NCBI GenBank assembly: GCA_015059785.1 | Contig: SUZS01000003.1 | Span: forward strand, 1-64,000 | From: Rikenellaceae bacterium | GTDB taxonomy: Bacteria > Bacteroidota > Bacteroidia > Bacteroidales > Rikenellaceae | Length of the DNA: 64,000 bases | Reading direction: 5' to 3' | Shown: positions 34,472 through 60,252 of the stretch, piece by piece | How positions within the stretch are numbered: position 1 is the stretch's first letter | Layout: every line of letters starts with the position of its first letter | Program-made: the position numbers and the translations under genes | The notes under the pieces: generated by a model | Told to the model about the DNA's origin: nothing | The model's input: the letters and a program-made list of their open reading frames with translations, nothing else | Database searches by the model: none

Positions 34472-35076
34472 TAAGAATCGCGCTTGTAGATGACCATACT
34501 CTCTTTAGAAATGGTCTTAAGGGTCTGCTGTTGACAAACTCGCGCTACACAGTAGTTGGCGAGTTCTCTGACGGCTCACAGCTTATTGCCGCACTGCCAC
34601 ACTTGGAGGTAGATGTGGTGCTGATGGATATATCTATGCCAAATATGGATGGCAAAACAGCCACAATCCTTGCGCTGCAACAACGCCCCGAGCTGAAGAT
34701 TGTCGCCCTTACAATGTACGGCGAGGAGCAGTATGTCCAGCAGATGGTAGATGCCGGTGTGGTAGGCTTTATCCATAAAGATTCTGATATCAAGATTGTA
34801 TTTGAGGCTATTGATACTGTTGTCGCTGGTGGCGAGTATCTTCCAGAGATTCAGATTGTTGAGGGGCTTGATGACCCTGATATGCTAACTGAGCGAGAAC
34901 TCGCAGTTCTCACCTGCATCTGCAAGGGACTCTCAACCCCTCAGATAGCCGAGCATCTCAACATCTCTAAGCGCACCGTAGATGCCCACCGCGCCCGCAT
35001 CCTTGAAAAAACCGGATGTAATAATACAGCCAGTTTGGTGGTTCACGCAGTTACTAAGCTCAAAATTTTGCCGTGA
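34468..35076 (+). CDS. LuxR/NarL-family response regulator
   Basis: 202 aa; receiver VLMDISMPNMDG and C-terminal LTERELAVLTCICKGLSTPQIAEHLNISKRTVDAHRA HTH. Confidence 0.95.
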   Translation: MIRIALVDDHTLFRNGLKGLLLTNSRYTVVGEFSDGSQLIAALPHLEVDVVLMDISMPNMDGKTATILALQQRPELKIVALTMYGEEQYVQQMVDAGVVGFIHKDSDIKIVFEAIDTVVAGGEYLPEIQIVEGLDDPDMLTERELAVLTCICKGLSTPQIAEHLNISKRTVDAHRARILEKTGCNNTASLVVHAVTKLKILP

Positions 35077-38970: not shown

Positions 38971-39132
38971 CTATCTACAACCCTCAGTCAGCTCATCGCT
39001 GAGCTATCAATTACCACTACGGGCATCGCTGTGGCGGTAAACAGAAAAATTATCCCCCGACAACTCTGGGAGCAGACAAATCTGACCGAGGGGGACTCTA
39101 TTGTTATAATTAAAGCAGTCTACGGAGGATGA
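38935..39132 (+). CDS. thiS: Sulfur carrier protein ThiS
   Basis: 66 aa, C-terminal GG; starts MRLTVNNKEG. Confidence 0.92.
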   Translation: MRLTVNNKEGLFLSTTLSQLIAELSITTTGIAVAVNRKIIPRQLWEQTNLTEGDSIVIIKAVYGG

Positions 39133-39733
39133 TACAGTTTATATCTCACTTTACGGCGCGCTACTCCTATTTGGACTCCGTAAGACTCGCCCTTGAGGGT
39201 GGTTGTCGGTGGATTCAGCTCAGAATGAAGGACGCTACGCAGACAGAACTCTATCGTACAGCACTGATTGTTAAACAGATGTGTAGCGACTATGGCGCGA
39301 CTTTTATTATTGACGACAATGTGCATATTGCCCATCGTATATCTGCCGATGGGGTGCATCTTGGCAAGAACGATATGCCGATAGCCTGGGCGCGAGACAT
39401 TTTGGGACCAAATGCCATTATTGGCGGTACGGCAAATACCTTTGAGGATGTTCTGTCTATAGCAAAGGCGGGTGGTAACTACATCGGCTGTGGGCCGTAT
39501 CGCTTTACCAAAACAAAGGAGCGGTTAAGTCCTATACTTGGTCTTGAGGGTTATCGGGATATTGTCAGGCAGATGCGAGAGCATAATATAACACTTCCGA
39601 TAGTGGCTATAGGAGGAATTACGGCTGAGGATTTGCCCGCTCTAAAGCAGACGGGCGTAGATGGTATAGCACTAAGTGGCAGTGTGTTAAGGGCTGATAA
39701 TCCAGAGTGTGAAATGAGTAAAATTATAAAACT

Positions 39734-39749
<16 letters not shown>
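39129..39749 (+). CDS. thiE: Thiamine phosphate synthase
   Basis: 206 aa; [39 protein letters not shown]. Confidence 0.93.
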
Positions 39750-43174
<3,425 letters not shown>

Positions 43175-43199
<25 letters not shown>

Positions 43200-43849
43200 C
43201 CCTCGCGGAAGTAGGCGAGGCGGGGCAACAGAAGATTAAGGGCACAAAGGTGCTTGTTGTGGGCGTTGGTGGACTGGGTGCAGTCGTGGCTCAGTACCTT
43301 GTGGCGGCTGGAGTGGGAAAGGTCGGAGTTGTTGATGGCGACAGCGTGAGTGTCAGCAACCTACATCGCCAAATTCTCTACAGCGAGCAGGATGTCAGAA
43401 GACCAAAAGTTGAGGTTGCAGCCGATAGACTGAGGGCGATGAATAGCGAGGTTGAGGTTGTTTCGTACAACACCTTCCTTACGGCAGAGAATGGGGCAGA
43501 GATTATTTCCGATTACGATATTGTCGTTGATGGGGCGGATAACTACGCTGTGCGGGCTGTAGCAGAGAGCATTTGTGCTGAGCAGAATAAACACTTTGTA
43601 CACGGGGCTGTGGAGGGCTTTGTGGGGCAGGTGTCGGTCTTTTGGGGCGATAGAACACACCGCTATAGTGAGATTTTTGAGCCTAACCAGAGCACAGAAA
43701 AGGGGATTGTTGGCGCTACGGCAGGGGTTGTTGCGGCAGCCGAGGTGTCGGAGTGCCTGAAGATTATCTGCGGCTATGGCACTGTGCTGTACAACCGACT
43801 GTGGAGGGTCGATTTAAGAACGATGAACTGCGAAATTTTTGAACTATGA
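43175..43849 (+). CDS. thiF: ThiF/MoeB/HesA adenylyltransferase
   Basis: 224 aa; RYSRQIALAEVGEAGQQKI, VGVGGLGAVVAQYL, GATAGVVAAAEVSECLK. Confidence 0.93.
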
Positions 43850-45171
43850 GACTACTTGCTATCACTCGCCCAGAACTCTATGTTGAGGAGATTCGTGAGG
43901 CTATATATCTGCTTGAAAATGTGGTGGATATCCTGCATATCCGTAAGCCAAATGCTACGGCAGAACAGGTGGAACACCTTCTCTGTGCATTGAGAAAATA
44001 TCGCGACCGTATAGTGTTGCACGACCACTTTGATTTGGCGGTAAAATACTCGCTTGCTGGTGTGCATCTGAATAGCCGAAATAGCACTGTGCCGACCTCT
44101 TTTCGGGGAACAATTAGCCGCTCGTGCCACTCGGCGGAGGAGGTTGTGCGGTATAAAGCCGAGTGCGACTATGTTTTTCTCTCGCCAATCTTTGACAGCA
44201 TATCTAAGGAGGGGTATCGCTCGGCCTTTTCTGCTGATGAACTTGAGGCACTTCGTGATAGCGGAGTAATTGATAGTAAGGTCTATGCACTGGGCGGAGT
44301 TACGATGAATAACCTTCAGAGGCTTAAGGCTTTAGGCTTTGGTGGCGCGGCGATGCTTGGCGCGGCGTGGAAGCATCATCTTACGCCACCTGTGGTGCTG
44401 ACTGTTGCAGGGTCTGATAGTAGCGGTGGCGCGGGCATTCAGGCAGATATAAAGACCATTTCGGCACTGCGTGGCTTTGCTGCCTCGGCAATTACCGCCG
44501 TTACGGCACAGAATACAATGGGGGTGACAGATATTGTTCCTCTCACTGCCGATGCCGTTAGAAATCAGGCTGTTGCAGTCTTTGAGGATTTGGATGTAAA
44601 GGCCGTGAAAATCGGTATGGTGCATAATAGTGAGGTCGTTAAGGCTGTGGCTGATGTGATTGAGAAGTACACTGCGCAGTATACAGTTTGTGACCCTGTT
44701 ATGGTGGCGACAAGTGGTGCAAAACTTATTGAGGATAAGACTGTTGCGACGCTCGTAAGTCGTCTCTTCCCACTCTCTACGCTTGTGACGCCTAATCTGC
44801 GCGAGGCGGCAGTTTTGCTCGGGCGTGAGATTAACAGCGTGGATGAGATGAAAAGAGCTGCAAAGGAGCTCTCCGAGCAGTACAGAACGGCAGTGCTTAT
44901 CAAGGGTGGGCATCTGTTGGATAGTACAATGTGTGATGTGCTGTGTAGTGGTGGCGAGATATATACCTTTGTCAGTCAGCGAGTTGAGAGTCGTAATACT
45001 CACGGCACGGGTTGTACTCTATCTTCTGCTATTGCCACTTTTTTGGCGCACGGATATGCTCTTAACAGCGCTGTCAGATTAGCAAAAGAGTATGTAACAA
45101 AGGCCATTGAGCAGGCAAAGGAGCTCTCATTTGGCAGGGGAAACGGTGCGCTGTGGCACTTTGGAGAGTAA
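43846..45171 (+). CDS. ThiE-like / ThiD fusion: thiamine phosphate synthase-like domain + hydroxymethylpyrimidine (phosphate) kinase
   Basis: 441 aa; N-terminal VDILHIRKPNA...GVHLNSRN..., C-terminal TVAGSDSSGGAGIQADIKTISALRGFAASAITAVTAQNT and THGTGCTLSSAIATFLA. Confidence 0.92.
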   Translation: MRLLAITRPELYVEEIREAIYLLENVVDILHIRKPNATAEQVEHLLCALRKYRDRIVLHDHFDLAVKYSLAGVHLNSRNSTVPTSFRGTISRSCHSAEEVVRYKAECDYVFLSPIFDSISKEGYRSAFSADELEALRDSGVIDSKVYALGGVTMNNLQRLKALGFGGAAMLGAAWKHHLTPPVVLTVAGSDSSGGAGIQADIKTISALRGFAASAITAVTAQNTMGVTDIVPLTADAVRNQAVAVFEDLDVKAVKIGMVHNSEVVKAVADVIEKYTAQYTVCDPVMVATSGAKLIEDKTVATLVSRLFPLSTLVTPNLREAAVLLGREINSVDEMKRAAKELSEQYRTAVLIKGGHLLDSTMCDVLCSGGEIYTFVSQRVESRNTHGTGCTLSSAIATFLAHGYALNSAVRLAKEYVTKAIEQAKELSFGRGNGALWHFGE

Positions 45172-45188: not shown

Positions 45189-45219
45189 TTTGTACTTTCG
45201 TACAAAAGCACTACCTTTG
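45189..45219 (+). promoter_or_regulatory. susC-operon promoter with palindrome
   Basis: TTTG (45189-45192)-N19-TACCTTTG (45212-45219); palindrome TTTGTAC-TTTC-GTACAAA 45189-45206. Confidence 0.65.
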
Positions 45220-45225
45220 CCGATT

Positions 45226-48189
45226 ATGAACTCACTCAAACAATTTTTTCTTTTAATCGGCATACTACTGTTGAGCCTTACGGTATACTCTCCAGCTGCT
45301 GCGCAAGTGGCTGCTGGTCGCGTGACGGTAAGCGGTACGGTAGTATCTGCTGAGGACAACCAACCGCTACTCGGAGTGGCGGTTGTTGTGTTAGAGACGA
45401 TGCAGGGAGTGACATCCAACTTTGACGGTACTTACTCTATTGACGCTGCCGTGGGTAACACTATCTCCTTCTCCTTTTTGGGCTATAAGGAGGTAGTATG
45501 GAGAGTACCTGCATCACAGACAAACATTACGCACAACATTACTATGCAGCCTGAGACTGAGGCTATTGACGATGTTGTTGTTATTGCCTATGGCGTGCGC
45601 AAGAAGGGAACTATCACAGGCTCTGTCTCAACTGTAAAGATGGAGAAGGTTGAGAAGACCCCTACAGCGGCCTTTGACCAGGCATTGCAGGGTCAGGTGC
45701 CAGGCCTTACGGTTATGTTCAACACGGGCGAGCCAAGCGCAGCGGCGGTGATGACTATTCGCGGAACAAACTCAATCAACTCTGGCACCGCTCCGCTCTA
45801 TATCCTTGACGGAGTGCCTATTGCGGCAAGTGACTTTAACACAATCAACCCCGCAGACATTGAGTCTATATCAGTGCTTAAGGATGCCTCCTCAACATCT
45901 ATCTACGGTGCGCGTGCGGCAAATGGCGTTATTGTTATTACTACGAAGCGCGGTAAGGCTGCCGAGCGTCCTCGTATTGAGTATCGTATGCAGTTGGGCG
46001 TCTCGCAGGTGGCTTGTGGTAAGTGGGACCTTATGAATACCGCCGAGCGCATTGAGTATGAGCGACAGATAGGTATGGATGAGGGTCAGAACTACGCAGT
46101 ACTCTCGCAGACAGATATAAATTGGATGGATGTAGTCTTTAACTCGTCGGCTCTGCTGCAGAACTACGAGCTTGCTGTGTCGGGTGCAGACGACAAGACA
46201 TCCTACTATGTTTCGGGCGGCTACTACAACCAGCAGGGAACGGCTTTGGGCTCTGGATTCAAGCGATTTTCTACCCGTCAGAACTTTGAGCGCAAGGCTG
46301 CCAAGTGGCTCAAAATAGGTGTGAGCAATATGCTCAACTATCAGCTTATTCAGCAGGCGGATGAGGGTGCTTATACCCTTGTAACGCCAATCTCGGCAGC
46401 AAGATTTATGATGCCATACTGGAATCCATATCGCGCAGATGGAACTACAGCCTCTATTGCTGACGGTAGCTGGCGCGGAAATGGACAAAACCCGCTTGAG
46501 TGGCTTGAGCATAACCCAGTGACATTCAAGAAGTACAAGGTTCTCTCTACACAGTTTGCCGAGGCAACGCCTATTGAGGGGCTGACATTGAAGACGCAGT
46601 TTGGTATAGACTACTCACATACAACCGGCTTTGGGCAGTCATTGCCAAGCTATGCACCAAATCAGGGTCAAGGCTCTGCTTCGCGTAGCTCTACGGATAG
46701 CTATAGCCTGACAATCACAAATACTGTAAACTACCGCTTTGACATTGACAGAGTTCATAACTTCAACTTCCTCATTGGTCAGGAGGGCGTGGATAGCCAC
46801 TACGAGGCGTTTAATCTCCTTACGGCGGGTCAGAATAATGATAAGTTGACAAACCTCTCGTCTGGTACGCGCGCCAACTCGTGGGGCGATACTACAGACT
46901 CGGACTACGGCTTTGTATCCTTCTTTGGTCGTGGCGAGTATAACTACGACGACCGCTACTTTGCTGACTTCTCGGTGCGTACAGACGGTAGCTCCCGCTT
47001 TGGAGCCTCTCGCCGTTGGGCAGGCTTCTGGAGTGTCGGCTTTATGTGGAATATGCGCAACGAGGCATTTGTGGAGACGGCTAAAACATGGCTTACAAAT
47101 GCGCAGATATCACTCTCTACGGGTACTTCGGGTAACTCGTCAATACCGAACTATGAGCATCTTGCCCTTGTGGGTGGTGGTGTAGACTATGTCGGCAATG
47201 CGGGCGTAGGACTTATGCAGCCTGGCAATGAGCGACTGGGCTGGGAGAAGCCGTGGACAACAAACCTCGGCCTGCACTTCGGATTTTGGCATCGCCTAAA
47301 TGTAGACCTTGAGCTCTACTATAAACACACCTCTGATATGCTTATGCAGGTGCCAGAGCCATACTCAACTTCGGGCTTTGGATACTACTGGGATAATGTG
47401 GGCGCAATGGTAAATAAGGGTGTTGAGATGAATGTCGTGGGCACGCTTCTCTCGGCAAAGGATTTCCTGTGGACGGTAAATGCAAATGTGTCGTACAACA
47501 ACAATAAGATTACAGAGCTCTATAATGGCGTTCAGGAGTATGAGCGCTCGGGCACAAACACAAAACTTGTTGTGGGTCATCCACTTGGCGAGTTCTACAT
47601 CAACCGCTATGCAGGTGTAAATCCTGCCAATGGAGATGCGCTGTGGTATACAAAGGATGGCGAGCTGACAACAGTGTTGCGCGATGAGGATAAGGTGCTT
47701 GTTGGCAAGAGCTACATAGCCCCTTGGCAGGGAGGTTTTGGCACGGCACTGCAGTGGAAGGGCCTTCAGCTTACAGCGCAGTTTAGCTGGGTGGCAGACC
47801 GCTGGATGCTAAATAATGACCGATATTTTGATGAGTCAAATGGTCGCTTTGCATCCTACAACCAATCTTCGCGCCTGCTGGAGCGTTGGCAGAAGCCGGG
47901 CGATGTTACGGACATCCCTCGCCACGGAGTATATACAGAGTTTGACAGTCGACTGCTTGAGGATGCCTCATTCTTGAGACTTAAGAACCTGATGCTCAGC
48001 TACTCGCTGCCAGATAAGGCTATTCGCCGCACAAAGGTATTCTCTGGAGTTAGAGTATACGCACAGGCGCAGAACCTCTTTACATTCACTCGCTTCTCGG
48101 GTCTTGACCCTGAGGGAACGACAAATTTATATGCGGCGCAGTATCCAATGTCGCGCCAGTTCACTTTCGGTATTGATATAACCTTCTAA
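45226..48189 (+). CDS. SusC/RagA-family TonB-linked outer membrane protein
   Basis: Signal peptide, carboxypeptidase-like domain (VSGTVVSAEDNQPLLGVAVVV), plug (IRGTNSINSGTAPLYILDGVPI), SIYGARAANGVIVITTKRG. Confidence 0.97.
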   Translation: MNSLKQFFLLIGILLLSLTVYSPAAAQVAAGRVTVSGTVVSAEDNQPLLGVAVVVLETMQGVTSNFDGTYSIDAAVGNTISFSFLGYKEVVWRVPASQTNITHNITMQPETEAIDDVVVIAYGVRKKGTITGSVSTVKMEKVEKTPTAAFDQALQGQVPGLTVMFNTGEPSAAAVMTIRGTNSINSGTAPLYILDGVPIAASDFNTINPADIESISVLKDASSTSIYGARAANGVIVITTKRGKAAERPRIEYRMQLGVSQVACGKWDLMNTAERIEYERQIGMDEGQNYAVLSQTDINWMDVVFNSSALLQNYELAVSGADDKTSYYVSGGYYNQQGTALGSGFKRFSTRQNFERKAAKWLKIGVSNMLNYQLIQQADEGAYTLVTPISAARFMMPYWNPYRADGTTASIADGSWRGNGQNPLEWLEHNPVTFKKYKVLSTQFAEATPIEGLTLKTQFGIDYSHTTGFGQSLPSYAPNQGQGSASRSSTDSYSLTITNTVNYRFDIDRVHNFNFLIGQEGVDSHYEAFNLLTAGQNNDKLTNLSSGTRANSWGDTTDSDYGFVSFFGRGEYNYDDRYFADFSVRTDGSSRFGASRRWAGFWSVGFMWNMRNEAFVETAKTWLTNAQISLSTGTSGNSSIPNYEHLALVGGGVDYVGNAGVGLMQPGNERLGWEKPWTTNLGLHFGFWHRLNVDLELYYKHTSDMLMQVPEPYSTSGFGYYWDNVGAMVNKGVEMNVVGTLLSAKDFLWTVNANVSYNNNKITELYNGVQEYERSGTNTKLVVGHPLGEFYINRYAGVNPANGDALWYTKDGELTTVLRDEDKVLVGKSYIAPWQGGFGTALQWKGLQLTAQFSWVADRWMLNNDRYFDESNGRFASYNQSSRLLERWQKPGDVTDIPRHGVYTEFDSRLLEDASFLRLKNLMLSYSLPDKAIRRTKVFSGVRVYAQAQNLFTFTRFSGLDPEGTTNLYAAQYPMSRQFTFGIDITF

Positions 48190-48199
48190 ATGTGTGGAT

Positions 48200-49720
48200 A
48201 TGTTGAAAAATGTAAAGATATTATTTGTTGCACTTACAGCACTCTGTGCCGTATCGTGCCTTGACAAGGTACCTCAGTCGGCTATCCCACAGCAGCAGGC
48301 TATGCAGACTTTTGACGATGCCGAGCAGACCGTTACGGGCATATACTCGCTACTTAAGAGTAGTGCGCTCTATAGCGGTTACCTTACAATTCTGCCCGAC
48401 CTGCAGACCGACCTTGTGTATGCCGTAGATGGTTATTCAAATACCTATGGCAACTTCTGGTTGTGGACAATTCGCTCTACAACTTCCGAGATTGAGAGCG
48501 TATATGCCTCTCTGTATCAGATTATTGCTTCTTGCAACTTCTACCTTGACTATGTGCCTCGCGTAGTGGCAGCAACGACGGATGAGAATAAACTTAACGA
48601 CCTTAACACCTACACTGGCGAGGTCTATGCTATTCGCGCCCTTGCATACTCGGAGCTGCTCAAGTGCTACTGTAAGGCCTATAAGCCAGAGACGGCAGAG
48701 AGAGAGCTTGGTGTCGTGCTCCGTACAACGACCCTTGATAAGCAACCACTGCCTCGTGCATCGCTCTACGACTCTTACCAGCAGGTTATTAAGGATTTGG
48801 AGCGTGCAGAGGAGCTTCTTGATGAGGATAATGACGCCTACAGTAGTGCCTTTGTCACCCGCGCAATGGTCCTTGCACTCCACGCCCGCGTGGCCCTCTA
48901 TATGGAGGATTGGCAGAGCGCAGTTAAGTACTCTACAGAGCTTATTGAGAGTCGTAACTTCGCGCTGAGTTCGGCTGTGAGCTACTATACAAACAATATG
49001 ACCTACTTTGACTATATGTGGAACTACGATGTGGCTACAGAGATTATCTGGCGCATCGGCTTTACCACAACATCGTATGGTGGCGCACTGGGTCAGTCGT
49101 TCTTGGGCTTTAATGTAGACTATACATACTACTATCCAGACTATGTGCCTGCACAGTGGGTGCTTGACCTATACTCTAATAGCGATATGCGCTACAGTAG
49201 CTACTTCTACACCCTGCCGACAGGCTATAATCACGGATTGCAGTGGCCGCTGCTTGTAAAGTACTTTGGAAATCAAGACTTTATAAACAATGCACTGATT
49301 TATCACACCGTAATGCCAAAGCCGTTCCGCCTTGCTGAGCAGTACCTGATCCGTGCTGAGGCCCTCTGTCGTCAGCAGACGCCTAACTTCTCGGCAGCGA
49401 CAAAGGATATCAATACACTGCGCGCTTCGCGTATAGTCTCTGGTGGCGGAGTTAACCTTACGGCGGATAACTATATTGAGCAGATTGCTGCCGAGCGTGT
49501 GAGGGAGCTCTATATGGAGGGTTTCCGATTGCACGACTTCAAGCGTTGGGGAGAGCTATATCGTGGTGGAGAGGGCTTTACCCGCACCCCGCAGTCTAAC
49601 TCTCTAACGGAGGGTAGTAGCTTGAGCGTAAAGGCTGACGACCCGCTCTTTGTCTGGCCGATACCTATTCACGAGATTGAGGCTCCGGGCTCACTTGTTC
49701 AACCAAACGAAAGCAATTAG
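48200..49720 (+). CDS. SusD/RagB-family nutrient-binding lipoprotein
   Basis: Lipobox AVSC; EVYAIRALAYSELLKCYCKAY; ERVRELYMEGFRLHDFKRWG C-terminal motif. Confidence 0.96.
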   Translation: MLKNVKILFVALTALCAVSCLDKVPQSAIPQQQAMQTFDDAEQTVTGIYSLLKSSALYSGYLTILPDLQTDLVYAVDGYSNTYGNFWLWTIRSTTSEIESVYASLYQIIASCNFYLDYVPRVVAATTDENKLNDLNTYTGEVYAIRALAYSELLKCYCKAYKPETAERELGVVLRTTTLDKQPLPRASLYDSYQQVIKDLERAEELLDEDNDAYSSAFVTRAMVLALHARVALYMEDWQSAVKYSTELIESRNFALSSAVSYYTNNMTYFDYMWNYDVATEIIWRIGFTTTSYGGALGQSFLGFNVDYTYYYPDYVPAQWVLDLYSNSDMRYSSYFYTLPTGYNHGLQWPLLVKYFGNQDFINNALIYHTVMPKPFRLAEQYLIRAEALCRQQTPNFSAATKDINTLRASRIVSGGGVNLTADNYIEQIAAERVRELYMEGFRLHDFKRWGELYRGGEGFTRTPQSNSLTEGSSLSVKADDPLFVWPIPIHEIEAPGSLVQPNESN

Positions 49721-49723
49721 GAT

Positions 49724-50623
49724 ATGAGAAAGTTACCTATTTATATATTAGTGCTCTTGGCACTCTGCAGTTGTAAGGAGCAGTATACCACATATAGCGA
49801 TGCGGAGTATGTGATGTTTGCCGACAGCCTATCAACAAATATGGTTGAGAAGAGCAACAGCCGCTTTAGTGTGCCTATTGCCTCAACCGTTGCTCGCGAC
49901 TATGACCGCACATTCGGCGTTGAGGTTGTAGATGCGGGGAGCAATGCCGTTGAGGGTAAGCACTACCGCATTGTCTCAAATACCGTTACAATCCCTGCGG
50001 GTAAAACATCCGCAAATGTTGAGGTTGAGGGTATTTACGACAATATCGGGGCTACCGACTCGCTCGGCTTCAGACTGCGCCTTGTGATGAATAGCGCACT
50101 GAAGTGGGACCTCTATAAGGACTCGGATATGACAAAGGTCGTAATGTATAAGAGCTGTCCTTATGACCGCAATAACTTTACGGGTTATGCAGTGCTCTCG
50201 TCACTGCTTCTGCGTGACTATCCGGGCGAGAATGCCTCTTACCAGAAGGTTGTCTATACCGAGGCGCACCCTACAGAGCCCGATATGATAATTATCCGCG
50301 ATGCCTTCTACAATGGCTATGATATTACCCTTACTTTTGATGGAACAGACCCTGCCGAGCCACGCATTACGATGGATAGCGACCAGGTGTTGAGCGATGA
50401 GGCGTCGGTCTTTGGGCAGATTTTGGGCGATAACCATATCCTTGGCGACGATAGTCCGATATATGCCTCTTACTTCAACTCTTGCCAGCGATTTGCGGTG
50501 TTGTGGCTCCATGTATATGTTGAGAAGTTGGGCGAGCCTATCGGCACGGTAGGCCACTTCTACAATATCCTTGAGTGGATATCAGATGAGGAGGCAGAAA
50601 GACTTAAACGAGAGGGATTTTAA
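49724..50623 (+). CDS. DUF4843-like lipoprotein
   Basis: Lipobox LALCSC; position directly after SusD; VPIASTVARDYDRTFGVEVVDAGSNAVEGKHYRI. Confidence 0.65.
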   Translation: MRKLPIYILVLLALCSCKEQYTTYSDAEYVMFADSLSTNMVEKSNSRFSVPIASTVARDYDRTFGVEVVDAGSNAVEGKHYRIVSNTVTIPAGKTSANVEVEGIYDNIGATDSLGFRLRLVMNSALKWDLYKDSDMTKVVMYKSCPYDRNNFTGYAVLSSLLLRDYPGENASYQKVVYTEAHPTEPDMIIIRDAFYNGYDITLTFDGTDPAEPRITMDSDQVLSDEASVFGQILGDNHILGDDSPIYASYFNSCQRFAVLWLHVYVEKLGEPIGTVGHFYNILEWISDEEAERLKREGF

Positions 50624-50636
50624 CAAAAATAGATAT

Positions 50637-52625
50637 ATGAAGAAGATTTTTAGTTTGGCAAGCCTGATGCTTGCTGCGTCAATGATTTTTGTGGCGTGTG
50701 GAACAGACCCTGTAGATAACCCTACGGAGGAGCCTACACCGACCCCAACGCCAGATGTTGAGGAGCCAGCCTTTCCAGAGGCTGTGACCGCGACTGTGGC
50801 ACCCGGAAGTGAGTATACCCTTGCTATTGAGCCAAATATGGCGTGGGAGGTCAGTGTGCCAGAGGCTACAGCGGCTTATTTCCACATTAAGAGTGGCGAA
50901 AATGCTGTCTACACCCTTCGTGGCGAGGCCGGTAAGCACAATGTGGTTATTGCAGTTGCTGATGTTGAGGAGTTTGACGCTGACCGTGTATGTGAGGTGA
51001 CAATGAAGATGCAGTCTAAAACTAAGACCATTGCAACCCTTACACTTGCCCGCAAGGCGCGCGAGATGAAGATTTACCCTGTTGTGGTTGAGAATAACGC
51101 CTTTAGTTACGCAACAGAGGGCGAGCTAATCTATTCCTATCAGACCACAGAGGTTACTGCCGAGGGTGTGAAGATGATTTGGCCAGAGGAGATGGCACTC
51201 TACTCTACCCGCGTGAAGGTTGAGAGCAACTTTAACTGGATTGTAGATGGCGCGCCAGAGTGGATTGCACCTATTGAGGGCGGCGCAGCTGGTACAACAG
51301 AGCTCTGGATAAAGGGCAATGCGGCCAAATATCCGATGACCGAGCAGAGCGCTGTGCTACGCTTTGTAGATGCAGCAGCAGTAGATAAGGAGGCGATGAG
51401 CCTTAAGGTGGCTATCCCTGCGGCTACAGAGATATTTATGGTTGACGGAACGACCGAGAAGACAGAGTTTAACTATCAGGGTATGGTCTACAACACTATG
51501 ATTGGCGAGTATGTTGAGGGTGGCGTGAATGCAACGGTTACCGCTGTAGATGGCTCGGCTGTTGTTGCTGTAGAGTTTACCGAGACTGCGGGCCTTGTTC
51601 AGCCTACACTCGCCCCTGCTTGGCTTACGCTGGACTATGCAGCGTGGGATGCAACGGACGATAGCGTTATCCAGAGCCGTAGCCTTACAATCACTGCCGC
51701 TGTAAATGAGGGTGCTGCGCGTAAGGCAACGGTGCTTGTCCTTCCACAGAGCGTGGCTACAAACGATGTAGATGTTATCGCTGTAAATGGCGAGATAACT
51801 GCTGACTATCAGCAGTATATTGCCACTGTCGTGGAGCAGGCGGGCGACCCGGGCTCTATAGAGATTGTTGGCGAGCAGACTATGGAGGCTAATGGTGGAA
51901 GTATTGAGCCACTGGACGCTTCACACTGGATTTTTAGCAGCTTTGCTACAGCAAAGGTTGGCTACGATGTGCTCTACACCTCACAGTGGGCATATGAGGA
52001 TTGGTATGTCAATGTTGTGCGCCCATATACAGAGATTAAGTGCTACTCATTTGACGCTGCGGGCGCAATGGTAGAGCTTACAGGCAGTACTGCGTGGATT
52101 ACAACTACCGTTTTTGGTACCGCTTCCGAAAAGGTGCGCATTGTTATGGATGCAACAAAGCCTACGGCTGCACAGTCAAAGAATGCTCTTACTGGCGACT
52201 TTGAGGGTGTTGTGACCTTTGCCGATGCAGATGGCGTCTTTGCGCTCATCTTCTGTAGGTATAACGAGTCTGCGGCACAGCAATCTACGGGCGTGGCGTT
52301 TAGCTATCCAGAGTATGCGGCACAGCAGAACTCAACACTCGTAGAGCTTACCTCAGGTGACCTCTATACAAAGTACGCCTCTTATGGCGAGAAGGTCTAC
52401 CACCTAACATTTACAACCGCTACACCAAACCTCTCTATGCTCAAGGGCCTACCACAGGAGTGGGGCTATATTGATGAAGCTGATAAGAGCTGGCTGAGCT
52501 ACGAGTATAGCGATGAGAATCAGATGATTTTGATGAATGCCCAGACAGGAAACGGCAAGACTGGTGCTCTACAGTTTGGTCAGGGCAAGATAGTACTTAT
52601 TTGTACACTCAACATTGCTCAGTAA
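50637..52625 (+). CDS. Surface lipoprotein with repeated BACON-like beta domains (function unknown)
   Basis: Lipobox FVAC, Pro/Thr linker PTEEPTPTPTPDVEEP, beta-rich repeats. ORF start 50571 trimmed. Confidence 0.6.
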   Translation: MKKIFSLASLMLAASMIFVACGTDPVDNPTEEPTPTPTPDVEEPAFPEAVTATVAPGSEYTLAIEPNMAWEVSVPEATAAYFHIKSGENAVYTLRGEAGKHNVVIAVADVEEFDADRVCEVTMKMQSKTKTIATLTLARKAREMKIYPVVVENNAFSYATEGELIYSYQTTEVTAEGVKMIWPEEMALYSTRVKVESNFNWIVDGAPEWIAPIEGGAAGTTELWIKGNAAKYPMTEQSAVLRFVDAAAVDKEAMSLKVAIPAATEIFMVDGTTEKTEFNYQGMVYNTMIGEYVEGGVNATVTAVDGSAVVAVEFTETAGLVQPTLAPAWLTLDYAAWDATDDSVIQSRSLTITAAVNEGAARKATVLVLPQSVATNDVDVIAVNGEITADYQQYIATVVEQAGDPGSIEIVGEQTMEANGGSIEPLDASHWIFSSFATAKVGYDVLYTSQWAYEDWYVNVVRPYTEIKCYSFDAAGAMVELTGSTAWITTTVFGTASEKVRIVMDATKPTAAQSKNALTGDFEGVVTFADADGVFALIFCRYNESAAQQSTGVAFSYPEYAAQQNSTLVELTSGDLYTKYASYGEKVYHLTFTTATPNLSMLKGLPQEWGYIDEADKSWLSYEYSDENQMILMNAQTGNGKTGALQFGQGKIVLICTLNIAQ

Positions 52626-55264
52626 TGAATAGACTACTTTTAATACTATCCGCACTTATCATTGCGTTAGGCTGTACGAAAAGTGAGCCTGACTATCGCA
52701 ATGATGACTATGGATTTGCACAGTTCAAACTCTACAAGCAGGCCAGCTATGGCACTCGCGCAGTAAAACCTACGCTTGACTATCTTGCTGAGGCTTGTAA
52801 AGTCAAAGTTACGCTCGGCTACGGCGAGACGACCCTTGCTCAGACCCTTACGCTCTACTCTGTAGAGGGTGGTGCAGAGTTCGGTCTGCGCTCGGATAAG
52901 CTGCAACTGCTTACGGGCGAGTATCGCCTTGTGGCATTCTCTCTCTATGATACGGCGGACGAGTTAATCTATGCCGGCACGCCAGAGGCTGAGAGCGTTT
53001 TTACAGTTACCAGTGGCGGACTTACTGTCCACGACATTACCGTAAAGGTTGCCCAGCGTGGTAGTGCGCGCTTTACGCTCAAGAAGGCAAAGGAGGATTT
53101 CTCTAACGCTCCAACACGCGCCGTTGCTCGCCAGTATACCTTTGACGAGATTAAGTATGTGACTCTTACCGTAGGTCAGGTGCTTCAGTCGGGTAGCGTG
53201 ACAAACCCTATAAAGATTGAAAAGCTGCCTGCAAAGTTCTCAATGCACTTTGACGAGGATAATGAGATGAGTAGTGTTGAGGGATACCGCACATCGACTG
53301 TAGCCTGCGACTCGCTCGTTTCGCTGCCTGCGGCAAAGTATCGCGTAGTGGCATACGAGACCTACGACAGCGGTAAAAATCTACTTGAGAGCAATGCCTC
53401 TCCAAAGCTCTCGGAGTTTACTGTTGAGGATAACAAGACAACTCAGGCGGATGTGCGCGTGACACTCTACCAGAGCGATGAGTATCTAAAGGACTACTAC
53501 GCTCTGTATGAGATTTGGAAGAGCCTTGATGGCGAAAATTGGAGCTATGTGGGCGAGAACTTCCCTCGTGGAGCAAATTGGGAGTTTAACAAAGACCCAG
53601 ACTTGTGGGGTGATCAGCCAGGTGTGCAGTTGCACTCTAATGGTCGCGTGGCAAAGATAGATATCAGTGGCTTTGCCTTCCGTGGCGACCTCTCGCCAGC
53701 TATTGGCCAGCTGACAGAGCTTATAGAGCTCTATCTGGGTACGCACAACGATACAAACCTTATCTCCTACGACCCTACGCTTGATAGCAGCAAGAGTCTG
53801 TCGGAGCGTAACCGTACACGCCTTCAGAGTCACGGAGAGTATCTTCGCATTATACACCCTGCAACGCAGTTTGCCGAGCCTTGCGCCCGCGCACTTGCCG
53901 AGAACAATATCCACATCGCAGCAACATCGCTCTACGATACTATGTCAGAGGGCGATATTATAGACCGCAAGAGTGGAGAGCAGAGAATCCGTAAGATGGA
54001 TACCAACCACGGCACAATGTGCAATGGACTAAGGTCTCTGCCAGCAGAGATAGGTAAATTGACAAAGTTGCAGTACCTCTTTATTGCCAATGGCGCGCTT
54101 GAAACACTGCCAGAGGAGGTCGGGGAGCTTGTCTCTTGTACCGACTTTGAGCTTTATAACTGCTCAAAGCTCAAGCAATTCCCTCTGCAGATTGCCCGTA
54201 TGCCAGAGCTTGTATCTATCAATATCTCAAACAATAGTCAGTGGAGTGCCGAGCAGATTTATGCAGGTATGGATGCTATTGCTCGCGGCGCATCAAAGGA
54301 GAAGATTCAGATTCTCTATGCCCGCCAGAATAGCCTTGAGGAGCTGCCAGAGTCATTTAAGAATATGACAAAGATTTCGCTCCTTGACCTTGCCTATAAC
54401 AAGATTTCAAAGGTCTATCCGTTAGGCAAAAATGTCTCTCCAGTGCAGTTATACCTCGACAATAACCTGCTTGAGACGCTGCCAGCCGATAGCGAGGGCT
54501 ATTTCTGCGGTTATGCCGACTCGGAGGCCTTCTCGGTAAGGTATAATCGTCTGAAGAAGGTGCCAAACATCTTCTCGGCAAAGAGTAGCTCGCCACTCAC
54601 ATCTGTAGACTTCTCTGGTAACGATATTGATGGCTTTGAGGGCGAACAGGATGGTACATATCGCGGTATTAAGGTGGAGACGCTGACCCTTGCGCAGAAT
54701 CCGAAACTTACGAAGTATCCAAAGGCTCTTGCAACGACAAACTCTACAGTGGCATATATTATCCTTCGTGGATGTAATATAGACCAGATTCCAGAGGGTA
54801 GTTTTGAGTATGAAAATTCTATCTACCTGAACTCTCTCGATTTGTCGTATAACAACCTTACAGACCTGCCACGCGAGATGCACGCCGTCAACTTGCCGTA
54901 TCTCTATGGCGTGGAGCTGTCGTTCAACAACTTTGAGCACTTCCCATTTGAGCCGCTTGATAGCTCATATCTTACAGTGTTTGCCATTCGTAGTCAGCGA
55001 AATGCTGCGGGCGAGCGCTGCTTAAGAGAGTGGCCAGAGGGTATTTTCAACCATAAGGGTCTGCGTGGCCTCTACCTCGGTTCAAATGACCTGCGCAAGA
55101 TTGAAGATACTATATCTACGCTGATTTACTACCTTGACATATCGGACAATCCAAACATCATTTTTGATGCTACGGATATATGTTACGCATGGCAAGCAGG
55201 TGCTTATATACTTATTTATGACAAGTCGCAGACAATTCTTAACTGTGACGCAATGCTTGAGTAG
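52625..55264 (+). CDS. Leucine-rich-repeat lipoprotein, DUF4458-like N-terminus
   Basis: Lipobox IALGC; LRSLPAEIGKLTKLQYLFIANGALETLPEEVGEL and further LRRs. ORF start 52601 trimmed. Confidence 0.7.
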   Translation: MNRLLLILSALIIALGCTKSEPDYRNDDYGFAQFKLYKQASYGTRAVKPTLDYLAEACKVKVTLGYGETTLAQTLTLYSVEGGAEFGLRSDKLQLLTGEYRLVAFSLYDTADELIYAGTPEAESVFTVTSGGLTVHDITVKVAQRGSARFTLKKAKEDFSNAPTRAVARQYTFDEIKYVTLTVGQVLQSGSVTNPIKIEKLPAKFSMHFDEDNEMSSVEGYRTSTVACDSLVSLPAAKYRVVAYETYDSGKNLLESNASPKLSEFTVEDNKTTQADVRVTLYQSDEYLKDYYALYEIWKSLDGENWSYVGENFPRGANWEFNKDPDLWGDQPGVQLHSNGRVAKIDISGFAFRGDLSPAIGQLTELIELYLGTHNDTNLISYDPTLDSSKSLSERNRTRLQSHGEYLRIIHPATQFAEPCARALAENNIHIAATSLYDTMSEGDIIDRKSGEQRIRKMDTNHGTMCNGLRSLPAEIGKLTKLQYLFIANGALETLPEEVGELVSCTDFELYNCSKLKQFPLQIARMPELVSINISNNSQWSAEQIYAGMDAIARGASKEKIQILYARQNSLEELPESFKNMTKISLLDLAYNKISKVYPLGKNVSPVQLYLDNNLLETLPADSEGYFCGYADSEAFSVRYNRLKKVPNIFSAKSSSPLTSVDFSGNDIDGFEGEQDGTYRGIKVETLTLAQNPKLTKYPKALATTNSTVAYIILRGCNIDQIPEGSFEYENSIYLNSLDLSYNNLTDLPREMHAVNLPYLYGVELSFNNFEHFPFEPLDSSYLTVFAIRSQRNAAGERCLREWPEGIFNHKGLRGLYLGSNDLRKIEDTISTLIYYLDISDNPNIIFDATDICYAWQAGAYILIYDKSQTILNCDAMLE

Positions 55265-55265
55265 T

Positions 55266-56894
55266 ATGAGAAGAGGATTTCTATTTTTCGCCACAATGTC
55301 ACTACTTGTAGCTTGTGGCACAGATACGACTGAGAGTGCCTTTTCAACCGAGGGCATAGAGTTCGATGTTGAGGCAGCGGGCGGCGTTGTGACAAAGACA
55401 ATCACCTCGTCAAACCGCTGGATAGCCTCTACAGACAACCAGTGGATTACAGTATCGCCTGCCAATGGACACTCAACAACAGAGTGTAACTTTATCATTG
55501 ATTCGGCCCTTACAACAACACCTCGCCGTGGAGTAGTTATTATTGAGAACCTTGACACTTGGGAGCAACGACAGATTGTAGTCAACCAGAAGGGATTTGA
55601 TTATACCATTGAACTTGAGCAGCCAAAAGTAGAGATAGCAAACTACGACCGCCTTGATAGTCGATATTTTGATGTTACGGTAAAGTCAAATATTGACTTT
55701 GAGGTCGCTATTCCAGACAACGCCGGTTGGCTCAGTAGCGAGCGACACCACCTTGACCTTAACCGAGGTGCTCGCCCACGCACAACGACTGTTCGCTTTA
55801 AGTGGGATATCAACACCTCGCCAAAGGAGCGACTTGCACAGGTTGTCTTCCGCCCAAAGGGCGAGGTTGCGCTCGCCCATCAGGATAATCTGAATGTTAC
55901 ACAGCAGGCTGCCGAGCCAATCGTTCCAGATAGCCGTGCGGGCGACTCTGTGGCACTGCTCTCTATCTCTCGCACACTGCAAACTATGGCTTCGTGGGAT
56001 GCTTCACAGCCTATGGAGATGTGGGACAATGTTGTTCTGTGGGATAAGAGTATGAAGGGGTGTACAGATGATATGGTAGGCCGTGTGCGTAGCGCAGAGT
56101 TCTACTTCTTCAATATCAAGGAGCCTATGCCGTATGAGGTGCGTTACCTAACGGCTGCCGAGGAGCTATATTTCTTCGGAAATACAAACACCTTCCTCCT
56201 TAGCCTTGACTTGGGAGATGATATCTCGGAGTTGACACAGCTCAAGAGACTCACTGTGGGTAGTTATGGACTTACTTCGCTTCCAAAGAGCCTTGCAAAG
56301 CTGAAGAATCTGGAGCATCTTAATGTCAGCTCAAATAACTTCCAGACAGTTCCAGAGGTGCTTACAAAGGAGAATTTTCCTAAACTTCGTACGCTTATTC
56401 TCAATGCCAATCAGCGTAGCGTGGTCACTGATTTAAGTAATACCGTGCGTACAGACTTGGGAGGTTTTATTGACGAGCAGACATTCCCAGTGGACCTTAT
56501 TAAGTGGGATTTGGATACCCTTGTGCTCTCGGTAAACTATCTACAGGGTACACTTCCGACCTTTGAGGATGACGACACGGTGCCATACTATACGCAGGAG
56601 GAGATTGATGCAGTAGACTCGCTGCCGCAGATTCTTGTAGACCGCAAGATTAAGAAGGTTATGCCTTCGTGCAAGCGATTCTCAATAAATCATAACCGCC
56701 TCTATGGCCGTTTGCCAGATTGGTTGCTCTACCACCCTGCGCTTGATATGTGGATTCCATATAGCCTTGTCTTCCCACAGGAGGGAAGAGCAAAGAATGG
56801 TACACTTGCCGTCTTTGAGAATGAGCCATCAAATATGGACTACTATTATAAGGAGTATACAACAAAGAAAAAACCGATGGAAGATGAAGAGTAG
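55266..56894 (+). CDS. BACON-domain + leucine-rich-repeat lipoprotein
   Basis: Lipobox LVAC; AAGGVVTKTITSSNRWIASTDNQWITVSPANG; LTSLPKSLAKLKNLEHLNVSSNNFQTVP. ORF start 55134 trimmed. Confidence 0.72.
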   Translation: MRRGFLFFATMSLLVACGTDTTESAFSTEGIEFDVEAAGGVVTKTITSSNRWIASTDNQWITVSPANGHSTTECNFIIDSALTTTPRRGVVIIENLDTWEQRQIVVNQKGFDYTIELEQPKVEIANYDRLDSRYFDVTVKSNIDFEVAIPDNAGWLSSERHHLDLNRGARPRTTTVRFKWDINTSPKERLAQVVFRPKGEVALAHQDNLNVTQQAAEPIVPDSRAGDSVALLSISRTLQTMASWDASQPMEMWDNVVLWDKSMKGCTDDMVGRVRSAEFYFFNIKEPMPYEVRYLTAAEELYFFGNTNTFLLSLDLGDDISELTQLKRLTVGSYGLTSLPKSLAKLKNLEHLNVSSNNFQTVPEVLTKENFPKLRTLILNANQRSVVTDLSNTVRTDLGGFIDEQTFPVDLIKWDLDTLVLSVNYLQGTLPTFEDDDTVPYYTQEEIDAVDSLPQILVDRKIKKVMPSCKRFSINHNRLYGRLPDWLLYHPALDMWIPYSLVFPQEGRAKNGTLAVFENEPSNMDYYYKEYTTKKKPMEDEE

Positions 56895-58890
56895 ACTATT
56901 TTATATACTAACCCTGCTGCTTATTTTTGCCTCTTGCAGTAGATTTGAGGAGCAGAGCGTAACTACCACTCCAGCACCATATACGGCGGATGAGATACTT
57001 GTAAAGTTCACTGAGCAGGTGGCGCAGATGATTGCCGAGGCTGGTGTTGAGGGTAGTCGCGTAACTCGCAGTGGCGATATAGAGTTAGACGAGGTGCTTG
57101 AGACTATCGGCACTTGCACTATTGAGCGCGTCTTTGCTGTAGATAGCTCTGCTGAGGAGCGAACAGTAGAGAGTGGACTTAACCTTTGGTATGTGGTCCG
57201 CTTTGATAGTAGTAAAACTCCTGTAGAGGATGTTGCTCGCCGCTTTGCCCGCCTTGGTCAGGTGCAGAAGGTGGATGTTAATAGAACAGTGAAGCGTAAC
57301 TATACACACCGAGCAACACCTCTGCCACAGAGTAAGTTAGATGTCGCTATGGCGGCTACTCGCACAAGTGTAACCGACCCGCTACTCCCTGCACAGTGGA
57401 ATCTGATTAACAGCGGCGACCTATTTGTTAAGGATGGCGTTGTAAAGAGTGTTAAGGATGCCGATGTGCAGTGTCAGGGCGCGTGGGAGAAGTGTACGGG
57501 CGACAGTAGTGTTGTTGTGGCAGTGCTTGATGAGGGTATCTTTGTAGAGCACCCAGACCTGTTGCCAAATATGTGGGTAAACGAGGGCGAGAGACTACAC
57601 TCGGATGTAGATGCCGACGGTAATGGCTATAAGGGCGATGTATACGGCTACAACTTTGTGCATCAGTCAGGTAAGATTGTCTGGGATGATGCCTACGACT
57701 CTGGTCACGGAACGCATGTGGCGGGTGTAATCTCGGCAGTGAATAGTAACGGCATTGGCATTAGCTCTATCGCTGGTGGCAATGGAAGCGAGAATAGCGG
57801 TGTGAAGATTATGTGCTGCCAGATATTCTCTGGAAATGTGGCAACAAGCATCCTTTCGACTGTCCGCGCAATAAAGTATGCGGCAGATAATGGTGCAGTG
57901 GTGCTTCAGTGTAGCTGGGGATATGTATCTCCTTGTGCAAATGTCTACGACTGGGGTGCTGCGGGCTTTGGCTCAAAGGAGGAGTGGATAGCCGGCTCGC
58001 CACTTGAGCGCGAGGCTCTGGAGTATTTTACCCACTATGCGGGCTCGGCAAATGGCACTGTTGAGGGCGGTATAGCTGTCTTTGCGGGTGGTAATGAGAG
58101 TGCTGCGGCTGCGGGTTATCCGGGTGCTGCTGAGGAGTATATCTCTGTGGCGGCCACAGCGGCGGACTTTACCCCTGCCGTATATACAAACTATGGCACA
58201 GGAACTACTATCTCTGCTCCTGGTGGTGATCAGGACTACTACTATGAGTATGTAGACAGTGAGCATAACTATGGCGAGGTGGGCTGTATTCTCTCTACAC
58301 TGCCTTACCATATCGCGCCAAGCGGATATGGATATATGGAGGGTACATCTATGGCTTGCCCACATGTGTCGGGCGTGGTGGCATTGGGTATAAGTTACGC
58401 TACACAGCTGCGCAAGCACTTTACCGCTACAGAGATTAAAAACCTACTCGTTCAGAGTACAGTTGATATTGACAGCTACTTTGTCGGCACAAAGAGATAC
58501 TGCCGTTATGTTGCCGATGTAGGCCCAATTCAGCCTATGCAGATAAATATGGCGGACTATCGTGGCGGTATGGGCGGACAGGTAAATGCCGAGGCCTTCC
58601 TTGCAGCTATTGAGGGTGCGGGCGTAGATATGCGCTTCCCGAACATATATGTTGCAACAGATCGTCAGGTGGCTGTTGCCCCTGCCAGATACTTTAAGGG
58701 GGATAACCAGACCTTTGCGGTGACTATTGCCGATACTGAGGTGGCAAGTGTTACTAAGAGCGGGGCTATGCTTGTTTTCAAGGGTCTTAAGAGTGGCTCT
58801 ACTGCGGCGACAATCACGGCGAGTGGTGGTAGCAGCCAGACATTTACAATCACAGTTCGCCGTGGTGCAAACGATAACGGTTGGCTGTAA
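56884..58890 (+). CDS. S8-family (subtilisin-like) serine protease lipoprotein with prodomain and C-terminal Ig-like domain
   Basis: Lipobox FASC; AVLDEGIFVEHPDL, GHGTHVAGVISA, GTSMACPHVSGVVAL triad, FAGGNES oxyanion Asn. ORF start 56704 trimmed. Confidence 0.9.
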   Translation: MKSRLFYILTLLLIFASCSRFEEQSVTTTPAPYTADEILVKFTEQVAQMIAEAGVEGSRVTRSGDIELDEVLETIGTCTIERVFAVDSSAEERTVESGLNLWYVVRFDSSKTPVEDVARRFARLGQVQKVDVNRTVKRNYTHRATPLPQSKLDVAMAATRTSVTDPLLPAQWNLINSGDLFVKDGVVKSVKDADVQCQGAWEKCTGDSSVVVAVLDEGIFVEHPDLLPNMWVNEGERLHSDVDADGNGYKGDVYGYNFVHQSGKIVWDDAYDSGHGTHVAGVISAVNSNGIGISSIAGGNGSENSGVKIMCCQIFSGNVATSILSTVRAIKYAADNGAVVLQCSWGYVSPCANVYDWGAAGFGSKEEWIAGSPLEREALEYFTHYAGSANGTVEGGIAVFAGGNESAAAAGYPGAAEEYISVAATAADFTPAVYTNYGTGTTISAPGGDQDYYYEYVDSEHNYGEVGCILSTLPYHIAPSGYGYMEGTSMACPHVSGVVALGISYATQLRKHFTATEIKNLLVQSTVDIDSYFVGTKRYCRYVADVGPIQPMQINMADYRGGMGGQVNAEAFLAAIEGAGVDMRFPNIYVATDRQVAVAPARYFKGDNQTFAVTIADTEVASVTKSGAMLVFKGLKSGSTAATITASGGSSQTFTITVRRGANDNGWL

Positions 58891-59615
58891 TGCGTAATTT
58901 TCTAACCCTTATACTCAGCCTTGTTTGGGCTGGTGCGGTGGCGCAGATACGCCTTGTGCCAAGGTCGGTGCTTGATAGCATTGCAAACCCTCGGACCGTA
59001 AAGACTGCGCTTGTTGTGGAGCAGCAGAGAGTTGATTTTGGACGCTTAACGGAGGCAGATAAGGTAGAGTATAGGGTGGCCGTGAAAAATGTCGGCACAG
59101 AGACGATGACCTACCGTACAGTGCCCTCCTGCCGCTGTCTTAAGGTGACGGATGGTGTAGTTCGGGCAGGCGAGAGTGGCGAGATAGTTATATCTTTCTC
59201 GGGCAAAGGTCTGCCAGGACCCTTTACCCATATGGTATCTGTCTATGCTGCCGATATGACAACACCTACAGCCGTTATTTGGGTTAGGGGCTATGTTAAA
59301 GCGGGTAGAGACCACCGAGGTGAATACTACCCATACACTTGCGGAGCGTTGCTACTTCGTCAGCCAGGCGTAAAGATTAGGAGTAATTCTATTGAGTGCA
59401 TTGCTTGTATGAATAACAGCGATAGGGCTGTGACAATAACACAAGATAGCCTGCTTTCGTCTGCGGGTATAGAGGCCTGTACCTATCCAAGGACTCTGCA
59501 GGCGGGCCAAGAGGGCGATTTGCTTATTTCGATTCGTGGACAGAAGCAGCAGAATATGAAACTATTTATAGTGGGGGAGTATGCACCCTCAAAACGAGAG
59601 ATAAAAATTGAGTAA
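58890..59615 (+). CDS. DUF1573-like secreted protein
   Basis: VDFGRLTEADKVEYRVAVKNVGTETMTYRTVPSCRCLKVTDGVVRAGESGEIVISF. Confidence 0.7.
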   Translation: MRNFLTLILSLVWAGAVAQIRLVPRSVLDSIANPRTVKTALVVEQQRVDFGRLTEADKVEYRVAVKNVGTETMTYRTVPSCRCLKVTDGVVRAGESGEIVISFSGKGLPGPFTHMVSVYAADMTTPTAVIWVRGYVKAGRDHRGEYYPYTCGALLLRQPGVKIRSNSIECIACMNNSDRAVTITQDSLLSSAGIEACTYPRTLQAGQEGDLLISIRGQKQQNMKLFIVGEYAPSKREIKIE

Positions 59616-59616
59616 T

Positions 59617-60069
59617 ATGAGACGATACATTACACTACTTTTTGCGGCACTGGCACTCTGCTCGTGCGTGAAAAATGAGGCAGAGCAGGGAGAGCCTTTA
59701 GTAGATGTTACACCAGTAAATCTTGCTGGCGTGTGGGAGCTGACAAGTTTTGACAATGGCGCAACGCTGCAAGAGGGGGATTATGTCTACATCAGTTTTG
59801 AGCTTACCGACCGCGCCTATACTATCTACCAGAATATTGGCACGATGTATGGCGAAAAGCGTAGCGGACACTACTTTGTAGATACCGACCCTATGCTTGG
59901 TGCGGTGATTCGCGGAAACTATGGCACCGATGAGTACAACTTTTTTGACTGGTCGCACCGCTACAAGGTGGAACTCAGGGCCTCAACAATGCGCTGGACA
60001 GCTACAGACGATAGCCAGAATGTGTCGGTATATACCCGCATTGAGAGCCTACCAGATGCTCTGCGGTAA
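59617..60069 (+). CDS. Small lipoprotein, lipocalin-like hypothetical
   Basis: Lipobox LALCSC; LAGVWELTSFDNGATLQEGDYVYISFE start of a beta-barrel-like protein. Confidence 0.55.
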   Translation: MRRYITLLFAALALCSCVKNEAEQGEPLVDVTPVNLAGVWELTSFDNGATLQEGDYVYISFELTDRAYTIYQNIGTMYGEKRSGHYFVDTDPMLGAVIRGNYGTDEYNFFDWSHRYKVELRASTMRWTATDDSQNVSVYTRIESLPDALR

Positions 60070-60094
60070 TCAACAACCTTAAACTTTTAATATT

Positions 60095-60187
60095 ATTAAA
60101 CGACTAACCCTTTTAGCACTGCTTGTTGTGGCATACGCAGCTACAACAGCACAGAATGTACAGCTTCACTACGACTCTTGCCGCTAA
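60095..60187 (+). pseudogene. Truncated 5' remnant of a secreted protein (DUF5020-like N-terminus)
   Basis: Frame reads IKRLTLLALLVVAYAATTAQNVQLHYDSCR*; signal peptide plus first mature residues, no ATG, no continuation. Confidence 0.5.
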
Positions 60188-60213
60188 GTGGACTTTCTAA
60201 TGCTACAATATCC

Positions 60214-60252
60214 AAAAAAATAAGCACCGCTTTGGACGGTGCTTATTTTTTT
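60214..60252. terminator. Bidirectional terminator between the Sus-like operon and GDPD #2
   Basis: AAAAAAATAAGCACCG-CTTTGGA-CGGTGCTTATTTTTTT, 16-bp perfect stem. Confidence 0.9.

Follow-up and report, generated by a model that had tools for sequence, protein, structure and literature searches.

RagAB of Porphyromonas gingivalis works without a co-encoded protease, and to our knowledge, it has no co-encoded S8, LRR, or BACON partners. A study of RagA reports that residues N893 to F898 are conserved in RagA-1 to -4, absent in SusC, and likely to matter for the change from sugar to protein (PMC11817032). In the levan and dextran utilisomes, SusCD, a surface binding protein, and a surface enzyme are co-encoded (PMC7618045). 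In Bacteroides thetaiotaomicron, a structure of the BT2261-64 SusCD with a bound oligopeptide has been determined (PMC7782687), and the BT4240-50 mucin locus has a peptidase with BACON together with SusCD, for which the import of glycopeptides has been proposed (PMC11992087). RagAB and the utilisomes are already known kinds of system. Here, we describe an operon at positions 45189 to 60252 of a 64,000-nucleotide stretch (referred to as the window) of a Rikenellaceae genome (GenBank assembly GCA_015059785.1, contig SUZS01000003.1). Judged from its genes, the operon probably encodes an outer-membrane peptide acquisition system in which a transporter resembling RagAB is paired with a dedicated, lipid-anchored protease.

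Gene content and organization

The nine packed plus-strand genes that the original prediction had placed between a promoter and a terminator were all found as open reading frames, spanning 45226 to 60069. Gene starts were refined from the sequence, and a cut-off of 0.01 was used for Pfam. The features, in gene order, are as follows.

45189..45219, plus strand, Bacteroidota-type promoter TTTG-N19-TACCTTTG, a good match to TTTG-N19-TAnnTTTG
45189..45206, no strand, candidate operator formed by the inverted repeat TTTGTAC-TTTC-GTACAAA, which overlaps the -33 box
45226..48189, plus strand, SusC/RagA TonB-dependent transporter, 987 aa, ATG at 45226, NNDRYF at residues 863 to 868
48200..49720, plus strand, SusD/RagB lid lipoprotein, 506 aa, ATG at 48200 (Pfam)
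49724..50623, plus strand, DUF4984 lipoprotein (gene 3; Pfam and AlphaFold2 model)
50637..52625, plus strand, fast-evolving lipoprotein of 662 aa with tandem Ig/BACON-like domains (gene 4; orthologues and AlphaFold2 model)
52625..55264, plus strand, LRR lipoprotein with two DUF4458 domains (gene 5; Pfam and PDB homologues)
55266..56894, plus strand, BACON and LRR lipoprotein (gene 6; Pfam)
56884..58890, plus strand, lipid-anchored S8 subtilase with an S8_N region and a weak C-terminal Ig domain (Big_2) (gene 7)
58890..59615, plus strand, DUF1573/HYDIN-like Ig secreted protein (gene 8; Pfam)
59617..60069, plus strand, small lipocalin-like lipoprotein, the last gene of the conserved unit (gene 9)
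60213..60252, plus strand, intrinsic terminator hairpin, folding at -22.9 kcal/mol

The start of the LRR gene at 52625 overlaps the stop of gene 4 as TAATG, the S8 start at 56884 overlaps the BACON-LRR gene, and the DUF1573 start at 58890 overlaps the S8 gene. The identities originally assigned to the SusC, SusD, LRR, BACON-LRR, S8, and DUF1573 products were borne out by Pfam, whereas gene 3, which had been called DUF4843-like, encodes a DUF4984 protein (E value, 5e-40), with DUF4843 matching only below its cut-off. The seven lipoboxes had been counted correctly and belong to genes 2 to 7 and 9; the product of gene 8 has a signal peptide-like N terminus without a lipobox. In orthologues scored alone, the lipoboxes are followed by a negatively charged stretch, which is strongest in genes 4, 5, and 9 and resembles the surface-export signal of Bacteroidota lipoproteins. 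After gene 9, a short plus-strand reading frame (60100 to 60190), ending in LTLLALLVVAYAATTAQNVQLHYDSCR and a stop, resembles a signal peptide left behind by the decay of a gene for a secreted protein.

Transcription signals

The promoter ends 6 nt ahead of the susC ATG, and a near-leaderless transcript is therefore predicted; in most relatives, TAnnTTTG is found no more than approximately 35 nt from the start of susC. TTTGTAC-N4-GTACAAA occurs in a single exact copy in the 2.24-Mb genome. The arms of the repeat are kept in close relatives despite diverged upstream flanks, with a spacer that varies in length and sequence, the exceptions among these relatives being one locus (L063) that breaks one arm and two with a longer spacer. 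Most of the more distant relatives retain TAnnTTTG without the inverted repeat. A sigma-70 scan found no excess of promoters, as expected for Bacteroidota, and the terminator scan run with it missed the hairpin at 60213 to 60252, the stem of which runs into the T tract. This terminator may also serve the convergent GDPD gene. No RNA family, TPP riboswitch included, was found by Rfam in positions 30000 to 64000.

Immediately upstream (39129 to 45171) are genes that read from sequence as thiamine synthesis (thi) genes. A thi gene stop is located 17 bp ahead of the -33 box, and read-through from the thi genes into the operon is possible in this strain. No STN domain was found by Pfam, which makes the usual sigma/anti-sigma control unlikely. 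A histidine kinase and LuxR-type response regulator pair is encoded about 10 kb upstream (33515 to 35076), and nothing ties the pair to control of the operon.

Conservation across Bacteroidales

A total of 80 named loci were fetched by their LRR protein, and all those on sufficiently long contigs show the same gene order, with only a few fast-evolving genes going undetected. In the 58 loci with all nine genes readable, the order is kept, with median gaps of 4 to 45 bp. In addition, all 56 LRR-carrying genomes of the window's family have the S8 and LRR genes on one contig, no more than about 5 kb apart (tables read by eye), which, together with the order in the 58 loci, indicates that the genes are associated beyond chance. 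Gene-order conservation, proposed with the original prediction as a check, was thus confirmed: the same nine-gene order is present in sufficiently complete loci named Alistipes, Tidjanibacter, or Bacteroidales and in two other Bacteroidales families. These further nine-gene versions come from the L131 genome, which we regard as Bacteroidaceae-like, and from family f9 (L108 and L132). The L131 and window operons have identities of 56% for SusC and 44% for S8; the L131 DUF1573 copy was taken from the open reading frame list, and tblastn did not report it.

The flanks vary, with neither the upstream thi genes nor the downstream GDPD gene being conserved, and the genes past gene 9 are unrelated and mostly convergent (33 loci listed). 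The fixed nine-gene order within changing flanks indicates that susC to gene 9 is an inherited unit. The thi genes were considered as a part of this unit and rejected because they are not conserved upstream of the operon in relatives. The distribution of the operon is patchy: the LRR gene was found in 56 of the 150 genomes of the window's family and in 10 of the 151 genomes of the L131 family. The closest named loci are from metagenome-assembled Alistipes of the ruminant hindgut, the best being from a water deer rectum, with 95% identity for the LRR protein. In L108 (18336 to 20000; DUF4988) and L131 (1 to 1634), an extra codirectional lipoprotein gene follows gene 9, and the unit may therefore have ten genes there.

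SusC and its relationship to RagA

The best match of the window SusC among solved structures is RagA, with 601 bits, versus 385 bits for the dextran SusC (PDB 8aa4) and 334 bits for the levan SusC (PDB 5t3r). In a tree of 60 sequences, ten operon SusCs and RagA formed one clade with a support of 1.0, which excluded both glycan SusCs and the 47 control SusCs, drawn from two genomes (that of the window and L131); the sequences used for RagA and the two glycan SusCs came from alignments and are nearly complete rather than full length. Given a 20-residue offset, N893 to F898 of RagA correspond to NNDRYF. This motif, counted with a regular expression permitting R/K and Y/F, is found in 64 of the 65 operon SusCs (in one as NNDRFF), versus 0 of the 47 control SusCs; the L108 SusC, which is outside the 65, has NNDRYY. 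The other peptide-side aromatics of RagA (399 to 409) are mostly missing from the operon SusC in the alignment.

The window SusC thus has two features expected of a RagAB-type transporter, namely, grouping with RagA and the RagA-specific contact motif, and NNDRYF may separate peptide-importing from glycan-importing SusCs. Motif and tree position depend on each other, and shared ancestry without a shared substrate could account for both; as read from sequence, they amount to ancestry plus one motif rather than proof of substrate.

The S8 subtilase and accessory proteins

The catalytic residues of the S8 subtilase are D215, H274, N403, and S488 (numbered from the codon at 56887), and this triad with its oxyanion Asn is invariant in the alignment of all 76 S8 sequences. 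With a strict HGTH regular expression, 42 S8 sequences had seemed to lack the catalytic His; in the alignment, the motif is mostly HGSH and the His is kept in all, and the pseudoprotease reading was therefore dropped. The lipidation site precedes the S8_N region, the place of which suggests that it is a propeptide, and if so, cleavage may release the predicted enzyme. The same genome carries a second S8_N-S8 subtilase (G000:C4:133584-135425; L001), which is 42% identical to the operon S8.

Three versions of the operon (L109, L110, and L111) keep susC to the BACON-LRR gene and lack the S8, DUF1573, and gene 9 genes, which are replaced by another LRR lipoprotein and a different lipoprotein. Pfam gave no match for the L109 and L110 copies of the latter; the L111 copy is partly masked. 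The absence of S8 from some deeper versions points to a core made up of the importer and its LRR/BACON partners, with the protease as a variable add-on. In addition, the SusCs of L110 and L111 retain NNDRYF without S8, which indicates that the coupling of protease and importer is not obligatory.

The AlphaFold2 model of the DUF4984 protein (pLDDT, 88.6) shows a fold of the Calx-beta/DUF1735 kind, which is also seen in the accessory binding proteins of SusCD systems. No Pfam match was found for the window copy of gene 4; in its orthologue alignment, 15 of 44 members match BACON, and its AlphaFold2 model (pLDDT, 86.8) matches tandem Ig folds. The TM-scores of the gene 3 and 4 models to whole targets are low, and only the domain class is therefore claimed for them. 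The LRR protein (gene 5) has homologs with solved structures, PDB 4ecn and 4eco, of which the best match is 4ecn, presumably BT_0210. The lipocalin-like assignment of gene 9 is weak in the window copy (E value, 0.015) and was matched in all four orthologues.

A polysaccharide utilization locus would have tandem susC and susD genes together with one or more glycan-active CAZymes. The tandem pair is present here, and no glycoside hydrolase (GH), polysaccharide lyase (PL), CE, or sulfatase was found by Pfam and NCBIfam, in agreement with the original prediction, against which a CAZyme in one of the unrecognized proteins would have counted. Foldseek searches with genes 3 and 4 likewise returned binding or Ig folds and no enzyme. 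The peptide import that had been proposed is now better supported, by the RagA clade, NNDRYF, the intact subtilase, and the lack of a detected CAZyme, whereas the part that made BACON a capture adhesin is not supported: the BACON domain of B. thetaiotaomicron BT4244 bound no sugars and was read as a spacer (PMC11992087), and BACON looks like a spacer here as well.

Possible functions

In the proposed peptide acquisition system, SusC would be the pore and SusD the lid of a pedal bin of the RagAB type, and the DUF4984, Ig/BACON, two LRR, and lipocalin-like lipoproteins would be displayed on the surface around the pore as binding and spacing parts of a single complex. Any part played in it by the LRR, DUF1573, and lipocalin-like proteins is putative. 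The lipid-anchored S8 subtilase would, at the cell surface, cut proteins into oligopeptides, the SusD lid would close on these, and TonB energy would drive their import, coupling cutting to uptake.

The S8 enzyme might instead not serve feeding at all, and it might mature or trim the operon's own surface proteins or act on host or rival proteins, with SusCD importing peptides made by other proteases. The operon versions without S8 would fit such a role, as would RagAB, which manages without a protease of its own. In B. thetaiotaomicron, EspB was still cleaved by each of seven single protease mutants, among them that of BT_0212, the gene matching S8, and redundancy was suspected (PMC6282197). 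We nevertheless regard a nonfeeding role as unlikely, given the linkage of S8 in 56 of 56 LRR-carrying genomes of the window's family and the invariance of its catalytic residues in 76 of 76 sequences.

Similarly unlikely is the uptake of glycoproteins or glycopeptides, in which S8 would free glycosylated fragments for import by SusCD and glycosidases would be encoded elsewhere, as proposed for BT4240-50. The operon lacks a CBM and an M60-like peptidase, S8 is not a mucinase family, and SusC groups with RagA, although the bacterium is a hindgut inhabitant and mucin has been connected with B. thetaiotaomicron loci that combine a peptidase and SusCD, one of which has an M60-like peptidase but lacks a CAZyme (PMC11992087). 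The capture of a micronutrient, with S8 cutting a carrier protein to yield its cofactor or metal, is more improbable still. Two reports describe the uptake of iron and B12 by surface lipoproteins and TonB-dependent transporters in Bacteroides (PMC13142918, PMC10404256), and the last gene is lipocalin-like; however, the transporter is of the RagA type and not of a metal type, and the listed expression of BT0207-08 and BT0211-13 in B. thetaiotaomicron fell rather than rose when iron was limiting, with P values of 0.08 to 0.57 (PMC10434189).

Comparison with known systems

By published annotation, BT_0206-BT_0214 of B. thetaiotaomicron appears to have the same layout as the operon: BT0207-08 are annotated as SusD and DUF4984 and BT0211-13 as BACON, S8, and DUF1573 (PMC10434189), and the positions left over would suit the Ig/BACON and LRR genes. 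This likeness to the operon is one of annotation, and the Bacteroidaceae-like L131 version, with its nine genes, shows diverged sequence. In the open-access literature searched, we found no functional study of BT_0206-0214 and no description of a RagA-type importer, its own subtilase, and an LRR/BACON set inherited as one unit. Protein feeding by gut Bacteroidales is far less known than glycan feeding, and a species amenable to genetics appears to carry a counterpart of this conserved locus. It is possible, and we suggest it tentatively, that the operon is a dedicated utilisome for ordinary nonglycosylated protein, in which a RagA-type importer, its own subtilase, and five accessory lipoproteins act as one machine, inherited as a unit in several families of Bacteroidales, among which annotation would place human gut Bacteroides.

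The levan and dextran utilisomes differ from the operon in that their enzyme is a glycoside hydrolase and their SusCs fall in other clades without NNDRYF. The BT4240-50 mucin locus has an M60-like peptidase with CBM32 and several glycosidases, and the BT2261-64 SusC is distant from the operon SusC (101 bits). RagAB has the nearest characterized SusC among those compared, and it shares with the operon NNDRYF, the SusD/RagB lid, and the lack of a CAZyme, although the operon SusC has few aromatics in the 399-to-409 region.
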